Of a stretch of DNA of 64,000 nucleotides, positions 1 to 48,454 are shown piece after piece (position 1 is the first letter of the stretch; each line of letters opens with the position of its first letter). Both the position numbers and the translations under genes were made by a program. A model generated the notes under the pieces. It was not told where the DNA came from. It was given only the letters and a program-made list of their open reading frames with translations, and did no database searches. Source of the stretch: Rossellomorea marisflavi (lineage in GTDB: Bacteria > Bacillota > Bacilli > Bacillales > Bacillaceae_B); contig CP033051.1 in the NCBI GenBank assembly GCA_003667865.1, positions 2,382,501 through 2,446,500 of the forward strand. Direction: 5' to 3'.

Positions 1-76
1 GCGAAGTGGCTAAACGCGGCGGACTGTAAATCCGCTCCCTCAGGGTTCGGCGGTTCGAATCCGTCCCCCTCCACCA
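1..76 (+). tRNA. tRNA-Tyr (GTA), 5' truncated by window edge
   Basis: The anticodon loop reads CTGTAAA, so the anticodon is GTA. A long variable arm (class II), the GGTTCGAATCC T-arm and an encoded CCA at 74-76 are visible. About nine 5' acceptor bases lie before the window. The cluster probably continues upstream. Confidence 0.93.
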
Positions 77-120
77 AGATTTTTTCACAAAGTGAAAATA
101 ATCTACATTACTAATTTCAT

Positions 121-194
121 AGGGGCATAGTTTAACGGTAGAACGAAGGTCTCCAAAACCTTTGGTGTGGGTTCGATTCCTACTGCCCCTGCCA
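121..194 (+). tRNA. tRNA-Trp (CCA)
   Basis: The acceptor AGGGGCA pairs with TGCCCCT, the anticodon loop CTCCAAA gives CCA, and the 3' CCA is encoded. Confidence 0.96.
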
Positions 195-202
195 AAAAAT
201 AT

Positions 203-279
203 GGCGATTGTGGCGAAGTGGTTAACGCATCGGATTGTGGTTCCGACATTCGTGGGTTCGATTCCCATCAGTCGCCCCA
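203..279 (+). tRNA. tRNA-His (GTG)
   Basis: The anticodon loop TTGTGGT gives GTG. The acceptor stem has the extra G-1 opposite C73 that marks tRNA-His, followed by an encoded CCA. Confidence 0.96.
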
Positions 280-321
280 TACTTAGTCACAAATTCAATT
301 CCCAAACATATATTATATCAG

Positions 322-393
322 TGGGCTATAGCCAAGCGGTAAGGCATCGCACTTTGACTGCGACATGCGTTGGTTCGAATCCAGCTAGCCCAG
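322..393 (+). tRNA. tRNA-Gln (TTG)
   Basis: The acceptor TGGGCTA pairs with TAGCCCA, with discriminator G. The anticodon loop CTTTGAC gives TTG. The 3' CCA is not encoded, since the next bases are CTT, so it must be added by CCA-adding enzyme. Confidence 0.95.
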
Positions 394-396
394 CTT

Positions 397-471
397 GCGG
401 AAGTAGTTCAGTGGTAGAACACCACCTTGCCAAGGTGGGGGTCGCGGGTTCGAATCCCGTCTTCCGCTCCA
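397..471 (+). tRNA. tRNA-Gly (GCC)
   Basis: The acceptor GCGGAAG pairs with CTTCCGC. The anticodon is GCC and CCA is encoded. It starts only 3 bases after the tRNA-Gln discriminator base. Confidence 0.95.
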
Positions 472-478
472 TAATCAA

Positions 479-552
<74 letters not shown>

Positions 553-557
553 ATTGA

Positions 558-639
558 GCCGGTGTGGCGGAATTGGCAGACGCGCACGACTCAAAATCGT
601 GTTCCTTCTGGAGTGTCGGTTCGACCCCGACCACCGGTA
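558..639 (+). tRNA. tRNA-Leu (CAA)
   Basis: Class II tRNA with a long variable arm. The anticodon loop CTCAAAA gives CAA for UUG codons. The acceptor GCCGGTG pairs with CACCGGT, and the terminal CCA is not encoded. Confidence 0.94.
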
Positions 640-664
640 TTTTATAGATGTAACAGTTTTATTT

Positions 665-738
665 GCGGGTGTAGTTTAATGGTAAAACCTCAGCCTTCCA
701 AGCTGATGTCGTGGGTTCGATTCCCATCACCCGCTCCA
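665..738 (+). tRNA. tRNA-Gly (TCC)
   Basis: The acceptor GCGGGTG pairs with CACCCGC. The anticodon loop CTTCCAA gives TCC and CCA is encoded. It is the last gene of the cluster and is followed at once by a terminator. Confidence 0.96.
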
Positions 739-46775: not shown

Positions 46776-46984
46776 GCACTAATGAAAGGCTATTTTTACC
46801 TAACTGGATTCATCACCCATTCCAACTAGCTTTTCCCAGAATAAAGTGAGACGCATCTATGGTAAGATAAAGGAGTCTGGCTAGTACTCCTATAGAAATT
46901 AAAGAATAGGAATATGTGGTGATAGACTGTAAGGTAATAAACCACTAAAATATAATATAGTTTCTTAGAAAAATAAATATTATA
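46776..46984. other. Leader region before the riboswitch
   Basis: About 200 AT-rich bases with no gene. They should carry the terminator of the acetyltransferase gene and the promoter of the riboswitch-controlled unit. I could not fix either. Confidence 0.4.
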
Positions 46985-47080
46985 AAAGACGTTAAAGGCA
47001 AACTTACTGAAAGGTAAGGACGCAAAGCTACGAGTCTAAGCTATAGATAGAGTATGATCGTCGGGCTACCAGCTTTATTT
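46985..47080 (+). promoter_or_regulatory. Cyclic di-GMP-I (GEMM) riboswitch
   Basis: The conserved core is present in order: AAAGGCAAAC, a CTTAC-TGAAAG-GTAAG hairpin with GNRA-like loop, GGACGCAAAGCTACGAGTCTA, a variable arm, then TGATCGTCGGGCTACC. These are the hallmarks of the GEMM-I aptamer that binds c-di-GMP. A short hairpin with U-run (47081-47109) directly follows and is the likely expression platform. Downstream are a YvyF-like gene and an HD-GYP gene, the latter from a family of c-di-GMP phosphodiesterases. Confidence 0.93.
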
Positions 47081-47109
47081 GGCTATTTCATTTATTGGAA
47101 TAGCCTTTT
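47081..47109 (+). terminator. Expression-platform terminator of the c-di-GMP riboswitch
   Basis: GGCTATT/AATAGCC stem around an 11-base loop, followed by TTTT, directly after the aptamer. Confidence 0.75.
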
Positions 47110-47192
47110 ATATTCCAAGCTATTCTTGCTTTTACGTTATTTTTTACAGTTACTCTAGTTAAAACTACTTTTTGAAAAAGGGGTGAATCCCT

Positions 47193-47408
47193 ATGCAGCT
47201 AAACTGTGAAATCTGTCATTCTTTATTGAAAGCAGCTGATCGACAACAAGAAATATGTAAAGATTGTTCAGAAATAGAAAGAACTGAATTTCAAAAATTA
47301 AAGCGTTATTTAATAAAAAAACCAAAAGCTACCATTTTAGATATAAAAGCTGACACGACAATATCAATGGATTTAGTCCAAAGGTGGAAACGTCAAAAGC
47401 GAATATAA
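47193..47408 (+). CDS. Small YvyF-like zinc-ribbon protein, 71 residues
   Basis: A 71-residue protein with CEIC (Cys 5, 8) and CKDC (Cys 22, 25) motifs that can bind one zinc. A C-terminal helix-turn-helix-like segment (ILDIKADTTISMDLVQRWKRQKRI) follows. The layout resembles YvyF (the TIGR03826 flagellar-region proteins of Bacilli), which has the same CxxC pair and ends in a ...LLYKWIRKGRL-type helix. ATG 47193 follows AAAAGGGGTGAATCCCT. It is the first gene behind the c-di-GMP riboswitch and 28 bases before the HD-GYP gene. A role in motility or regulation is inferred from these links. Confidence 0.75.
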   Translation: MQLNCEICHSLLKAADRQQEICKDCSEIERTEFQKLKRYLIKKPKATILDIKADTTISMDLVQRWKRQKRI

Positions 47409-47436
47409 GAATAGAACAAAGTAAAGGAAGAGTGAA

Positions 47437-48411
47437 ATGAGATTTATAGATATCACACAATATGATTATGAAACAATGCAATTGGCAAAGCCTGTTTATG
47501 ATAAGATGAGAAGGATTTTACTTACTGCTGGGAGAACCATTCATCCGACGGTATTAAAAAGAATACAGGATATGGGCATTTCTACATTAGTGGTAGAAGA
47601 TGCTGAATCCGAAGGCATTACGTTAGATGAAATGATGGACATGCCTACTTGGATGGATATTGTAGAGGTTGTCCAGCAGGCATATGAGGATGTACAAAAT
47701 AAGAAAAAATTAAACATTATGGCTATTAGTAAAGCTGTAGGAAAACTAATTCTTGAATCCTCGAACCATAAGATTGTATTAACCATCCCTACTAGCACTG
47801 TATCAAAAGAGTTAGTAGACTATGCACATGCTGTCAATGTTACCCTTATTGCTTTACAGATGGGGAAGAAACTAAATTTCACAGGAATTCAATTGAAGGA
47901 TCTAGCTATAGGGACTTTATTACATGATATTGGAAAAGCTCTTTCCTCGAATGAAGAGGAGCATCCTCAAAAGGGGTTTGAGTTCCTTCGTGAAATTAGG
48001 GAATTCAGCCTGCTGTCGGCACATGTTGCCTATCAGCATCATGAAATTATGACAGGAGAAGGATTCCCTAGAGGACTGTCTGGTAAAGACATTTTAGATT
48101 TCCCTCAGGTTTGCGGAGTGGCAAATTTATATGAGAACTTAATTTCAAAAGAGAAGATGAACCCGAATGATGCACTTGAGCTAATTATGAGTAAGAGCGG
48201 AGGAGAATATAAAGCAGAAGTCATTCAAGCTTTTGTTGATAGTATTCCTTCTTATTTACCGGGTACAAAGGTAGAGCTTCATTCAGGAGAAAATGCCATT
48301 GTAACAGGTATCAAATCAAATTTACACAGGCCGATTATACGCTATATGAGCTCTGACAAGGAAGTAGATCTTGCTCAGAATCCAACGATTATCATATCCA
48401 AGGTTATATGA
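47437..48411 (+). CDS. HD-GYP-domain protein with divergent active site
   Basis: A 324-residue protein. The N-terminal 90 residues resemble the DUF3391-like lead of Bacillus HD-GYP proteins (YDKMRRILLTAGRTI). The HD-GYP part (about 125-300) has H131 in DYAHAVNVTLIAL, HDIGK (163-167), HPQKG (176-180), H196 and HHE (201-203). Two signature positions differ: the usual DGxGYP reads TGEGFP (206-211), and the later VAD Asp is Asn (VAN, 230). The family hydrolyses c-di-GMP, and here the gene stands under a c-di-GMP riboswitch, suggesting feedback. The substitutions leave activity uncertain. The start follows AAAGGAAGAGTGAA, and a terminator lies at 48425. Confidence 0.88.
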   Translation: MRFIDITQYDYETMQLAKPVYDKMRRILLTAGRTIHPTVLKRIQDMGISTLVVEDAESEGITLDEMMDMPTWMDIVEVVQQAYEDVQNKKKLNIMAISKAVGKLILESSNHKIVLTIPTSTVSKELVDYAHAVNVTLIALQMGKKLNFTGIQLKDLAIGTLLHDIGKALSSNEEEHPQKGFEFLREIREFSLLSAHVAYQHHEIMTGEGFPRGLSGKDILDFPQVCGVANLYENLISKEKMNPNDALELIMSKSGGEYKAEVIQAFVDSIPSYLPGTKVELHSGENAIVTGIKSNLHRPIIRYMSSDKEVDLAQNPTIIISKVI

Positions 48412-48424
48412 AAAATAAATCTTC

Positions 48425-48454
48425 AAGGCACATTCCATTAGGTATGTGCCTTTT
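48425..48454 (+). terminator. Terminator of the riboswitch-controlled unit
   Basis: AAGGCACAT/ATGTGCCTT stem followed by TT, 14 bases after the HD-GYP stop codon. Confidence 0.85.

Follow-up and report, generated by a model that had tools for sequence, protein, structure and literature searches.

The window, meaning the whole 64,000-nucleotide stretch of Rossellomorea marisflavi DNA that was analysed, contains a c-di-GMP-I riboswitch followed on the same strand by two open reading frames (ORFs), which encode a small YvyF-like protein and an unconventional HD-GYP protein (Table 1). The initial annotation had placed a GEMM-I aptamer and a hairpin with a U-run ahead of these two genes, and this arrangement was borne out: in a covariance scan (cmscan) the aptamer matches the full RF01051 model, is not truncated, and scores above the gathering threshold of 35 bits. 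A hairpin downstream of the HD-GYP stop codon (−15.3 kcal/mol, z −3.4), followed by a T-run, looks like the end of the operon. Promoter-like sites are no commoner than in shuffled sequences, and the candidate promoter upstream of the aptamer is weak. A cluster of eight tRNA genes occupies the left edge of the window (1-735).

Table 1. Features of the riboswitch locus, in window coordinates.
Feature	Position	Strand	Evidence
Possible sigma-A-type promoter (TAGACT-17-TAAAAT)	46923..46951	+	9/12 consensus match; weak
c-di-GMP-I (GEMM-I) riboswitch aptamer	46987..47073	+	RF01051, 80.2 bits, E 3.6e-14, model 1-87
Intrinsic terminator hairpin (expression platform)	47081..47105	+	U-run 47106-47109; terminator scan and folding
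71-aa YvyF-like small protein, two CxxC motifs	47193..47408	+	TIGR03826 partial match
324-aa unconventional HD-GYP protein	47437..48411	+	Pfam HD_5/HD, AF2 model, PDB match, 46 relatives
Probable operon terminator	48425..48452 (about)	+	Hairpin GGCACAT...ATGTGCC and TTTT

With a G at 46997 and CC at 47069-47070 in its alignment to the model, the aptamer seems to belong to the c-di-GMP type instead of the A20/cGAMP type; it is predicted to bind c-di-GMP. Position 46997 is what we take, from the alignment and established knowledge, to be the equivalent of G20 in Vc2, where an A instead of a G would suggest the cGAMP type. Seven nucleotides separate the end of the aptamer from the terminator stem, which is stable (−13.7 kcal/mol, z −4.6 versus shuffles) and is followed directly on its 3′ side by TTTTATATT. 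A complete aptamer, a G20-type position and a downstream intrinsic terminator are also found in two characterized switches, Bc2 of B. thuringiensis, which is turned ON by c-di-GMP (PMC4933901), and Cdi1_3 of C. difficile, which is turned OFF (PMC3649979); the window riboswitch differs from both in its target gene.

The direction of switching was approached by folding. Enforcing the aptamer leaves the terminator free to form, and in a transcript of intermediate length the fold model contains an alternative pairing that competes with the terminator and uses the P3 strand of the aptamer. Because the terminator can coexist with the bound aptamer while the competing pairing draws on P3, the modeling leans slightly towards c-di-GMP promoting termination (OFF). 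In a weak energy model the probability of the terminator is 0.99 free versus 1.00 bound for the window leader and 0.99 versus 0.94 for the leader from Aneurinibacillus; the Paenibacillus validus leader alone shows a real shift, from 0.57 to 0.93 on binding.

The first gene of the putative operon encodes a protein that the initial annotation had called a YvyF-type protein with two CxxC motifs. Its position between the riboswitch and the HD-GYP gene stands; the family assignment is partial, as the ORF matches only the first half of TIGR03826 (positions 5-72, E 6e-12, 45.7 bits) and falls below the curated cut-off of 124.15 bits. The full-length YvyF of the source genome is encoded elsewhere (G000:C1:476108), and another genome of the same order (G044) carries a comparable lone short YvyF-like gene without an HD-GYP neighbor. 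No YvyF-like ORF was found on either strand within 1.5 kb of the HD-GYP homologs checked (4 kb for two named records), which argues that the 71-residue protein is probably an accessory of the source genome and not a conserved partner of the HD-GYP gene.

The second protein comprises an N-terminal domain, an HD-GYP-like domain at about 120-270 and a C-terminal beta domain, and is recognized by the Pfam families HD_5 (5.9e-12) and HD (1.4e-10). Its motifs HDIGK, QHHE, TGEGFP and VAN are as first read, and the metal ligands of the pattern H..HD..H..HH are present as H131, H163, D164, H176, H201 and H202. The terminal Asp ligand (D305 in PmGH) is replaced by N230, the GYP triad reads GFP at 209-211, and V127 occupies the position of PmGH E185, which is mostly R or Q in relatives, so that the E/D-T-G motif is absent. 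An AF2 model of the protein (pLDDT 92.6) has the HD-GYP fold, with Foldseek matches to Bd1817, PA4781, DvhD, PmGH and V-cGAP3 at prob 1.00; the best full-length PDB match is Bd1817, over 313-321 columns at a TM of 0.52-0.58.

These substitutions were followed through an alignment, in PmGH numbering, of 47 subfamily members across Bacilli (the window protein and 46 relatives), in which one N-terminus (L084) is short owing to the chosen start codon. The ligands H189, H221, D222, H250, H276 and H277 are kept in all 47 members where the sequence covers them, and the HDxGK lysine, K225, in 46, with Arg in the remaining one. The position of D305 carries Asn in 44 members, Asp in two (L079 among them) and Ser in one; the lone Ser belongs to a protein encoded inside a chemosensory cluster (L143), and sister sequences of a single genus have Asp (L059) versus Asn (L060). 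At the GYP Tyr position, Tyr occurs in 21 members, Phe in 15 and other residues in 11. The equivalents of E185, R314 and K317 have been lost in the subfamily, Glu usually replaces D308, Asn replaces R192, and 34/47 have an acidic residue at the D183 position. The subfamily also has a shortened stretch between HD and the third His, which in the window protein spans 12 residues versus 28 in PmGH, a difference of 16. Decay peculiar to the window copy was considered and rejected, Asn being the state of the subfamily. Asn is also found at the D305 position in 10 of 15 related paralogs aligned from other genomes, and the source genome itself contains about nine further HD-GYP-like matches.

Characterized HD-GYP proteins offer three points of comparison. 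PmGH (4MCW), along with other active phosphodiesterases, has the H..HD..H..HH ligands, the HDxGK lysine and the overall fold in common with the window protein; the latter differs in lacking E185, so that no trinuclear site is expected, in the change of D305 to Asn, in the loss of R314 and K317, and in having GFP for GYP. In PmGH, activity is little changed by the mutations Y285A, R314A and K317A, is lowered but still present in D305A and E185A, and is essentially abolished by K225A, D183A, D308A and mutation of the other ligands (PMC4159591). Another example is Bd1817 of Bdellovibrio (PDB 3TM8), which has Asn for the last Asp and a degraded GYP motif without Tyr, and is inactive on c-di-GMP (PMC8177086, PMC4159591). 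Bd1817 resembles the window protein in its binuclear ligands, the Asp-to-Asn change and the missing Tyr; however, the two are only about 18% identical, Bd1817 has a longer HD-to-His segment, as in PmGH, and the cited literature describes no riboswitch or chemosensory context for it. DvhD of Desulfovibrio (9RBZ) is an inactive HD-GYP protein shown to be a c-di-GMP receptor (PMC13090378), and it sets a precedent for a receptor role. DvhD has the HD-GYP fold and, by alignment, Asn at the D305 position; its HD and HH ligands, which the window subfamily keeps, are gone, and it needs no metal for binding.

The initial annotation had proposed a weakened enzyme or a receptor, on account of both TGEGFP and VAN. 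This is plausible because Bd1817 combines the same Asp-to-Asn change and the absence of the GYP Tyr with inactivity, but such changes are widespread in the subfamily, since Tyr is absent from 26/47 members and Asn predominates. GFP says little about activity because mutation of the Tyr hardly affects PmGH (PMC4159591). With D305 and the guanine contacts lost and the nearest structural relative inactive, the balance tilts towards a predicted receptor or very weak enzyme in preference to an efficient phosphodiesterase. Catalysis could equally have persisted, given the kept metal ligands and lysine and the Asp/Asn swap between the two sister sequences.

The subfamily is thinly spread. Among 35 congeneric genomes no ortholog of the HD-GYP protein was found, only paralogs at ≤36% identity; sequences 53-56% identical to it are present in Bacillus pinisoli, Aneurinibacillus tyrosinisolvens and P. 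validus. Profile searches of 299 genomes from the order recovered 28 members, with further members in the class; one sample of Paenibacillaceae yielded 4/396, and a second sample of the order, which overlaps the first one, yielded 33/397. Scores with the first profile were 309-612 bits for members (the value of 309 being one partial match, L084) and below 235 for paralogs. Judged from these searches, the subfamily is discrete, patchy and single-copy. A comparison with congeners for an empty site gave no clean insertion site, the flanking TrmO gene having other neighbors in the genus.

A riboswitch lies ahead of the HD-GYP gene in 7/47 members from several families: the window, A. tyrosinisolvens, P. 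validus and four further loci (L076, L079, L081, L084). A terminator-like hairpin stands 3′ of the aptamer in all six leaders examined (the window and five related). No riboswitch was found ahead of the gene in the other own-order members scanned or in four further Paenibacillaceae, so the gene does not invariably come with one. Recurring before the gene in several families, the association of riboswitch and HD-GYP gene is, as far as these genomes indicate, real and recurrent but not obligatory. On a tree the riboswitch state needs 1-3 changes, with the window protein on a long branch, and may have a single origin. A conserved trio of riboswitch, small protein and HD-GYP gene, as initially suggested, did not hold up: among the loci checked, the source genome alone has a YvyF-like ORF beside the gene.

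Several relatives are encoded among chemosensory genes. In two Paenibacillaceae (G704 and G687) the HD-GYP gene lies within a cluster of CheX, CheY, the HD-GYP gene, CheW and CheA; genes for MCPs and for CheR or CheB are close by. Four genomes of family f28 have it immediately after a solitary CheY gene, and the order in P. validus is riboswitch, HD-GYP, CheY, the last directly adjoining and likewise solitary. Most members, including that of the window, are without chemosensory neighbors. Given the independent placements beside Che genes, the best guess for the window protein, by analogy with its homologs, is a function in chemotaxis or a similar sensory pathway. In three other families (f6, f42 and f45; L054, L058 and L052) a gene for a PHP-domain phosphoesterase is conserved upstream of the HD-GYP gene; that it acts on the product pGpG is a guess.

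Taken together, the locus is somewhat more readily explained as a short operon under c-di-GMP control whose predicted product, a metal-dependent effector of c-di-GMP (receptor or weak phosphodiesterase), would tune chemotaxis or motility. Transcription would start upstream of 46987, at a putative promoter, and the nascent RNA would fold the aptamer and then either stop at the terminator or be extended into a presumed joint transcript for the YvyF-like and HD-GYP proteins. The HD-GYP protein would recognize c-di-GMP and, as suggested by the relatives in or next to chemosensory genes, would act on the chemotaxis or motility pathway in a dose set by c-di-GMP itself. If the receptor reading is true, c-di-GMP works at two levels, RNA and protein. 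The wider proposal, that the Bacilli subfamily is a metal-bound c-di-GMP receptor feeding CheA/CheY signaling, with synthesis also set by a riboswitch in several lineages, is tentative and rather doubtful.

An active c-di-GMP phosphodiesterase transcribed according to the level of its substrate, with Asn replacing Asp as a ligand, is a credible but lesser possibility; feedback would be homeostatic with an ON switch and bistable with an OFF switch. Six of the seven binuclear ligands and the catalytic-type lysine are kept, the D183 position is mostly acidic, PmGH retains activity as D305A and is nearly normal as Y285A, and Asp and Asn interchange within one genus. A riboswitch over genes for c-di-GMP turnover also has a precedent in the B. 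methanolicus operon BMMGA3_04760-04765 (PMC4342826), which resembles the window locus in that riboswitch and target share the messenger c-di-GMP. Against efficient catalysis, however, stand the near-uniform Asn, with Ser once and then inside a chemosensory cluster, the loss of the guanine-binding Arg and Lys, and the inactivity of Bd1817.

Two further explanations concern the RNA and its target. A riboswitch that binds c-di-GMP and no longer controls read-through would resemble Bc1 of B. thuringiensis, which binds c-di-GMP while downstream expression is unchanged (PMC11218506), and in the fold model the terminator does dominate with or without a bound aptamer; yet a high-scoring aptamer still comes with a terminator ahead of homologous genes from several families, and we consider loss of control unlikely. 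That the riboswitch mainly serves the YvyF-like protein, the HD-GYP gene being an operon passenger, is more improbable still. In its favor, the terminator is followed first by the YvyF-like ORF, and YvyF is a family of the flagellar region. However, six other genomes have the riboswitch ahead of the HD-GYP gene with no YvyF-like ORF found, and the lone short gene of G044 exists without an HD-GYP neighbor.

Both elements have precedents: riboswitches have already been reported over genes for c-di-GMP turnover, and unconventional HD-GYP proteins are known. What is new, to the extent checked, is the delineation of an Asn-bearing subfamily in Bacilli in which control by a riboswitch and a place among chemosensory genes both recur. 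Altered metal ligands are common among HD-GYP proteins, and which of these proteins still cut c-di-GMP is seldom known. The subfamily offers natural Asp, Asn and Ser variants at one ligand, some controlled by riboswitches and some in chemosensory operons, so that one can test directly whether such proteins are enzymes or receptors and how c-di-GMP is tied to chemotaxis in Gram-positive bacteria.

The 4.59-Mb source genome contains 11 c-di-GMP-I riboswitches, including that of the window. By inspection of translated ORFs, others (L001, L003, L006, L009 and L010) precede a CheW-like gene with an MCP gene, two further MCP genes and two GGDEF genes, and the predicted c-di-GMP regulon appears chemotaxis-heavy. 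Another of them, a match of 46 bits (L011/L105; G000:C1:802216-802302, minus strand), lies before a short SinI-like ORF adjoined by a SinR-like gene. The 3′ part of this aptamer appears about 100 nt or more farther on, which suggests a long insertion inside P3; a c-di-GMP riboswitch ahead of sinI has been reported in B. methanolicus (PMC4342826). Near the Aneurinibacillus locus, a second c-di-GMP-I riboswitch (L043, 790-872) lies ahead of a short ORF and a ComFC-like gene.
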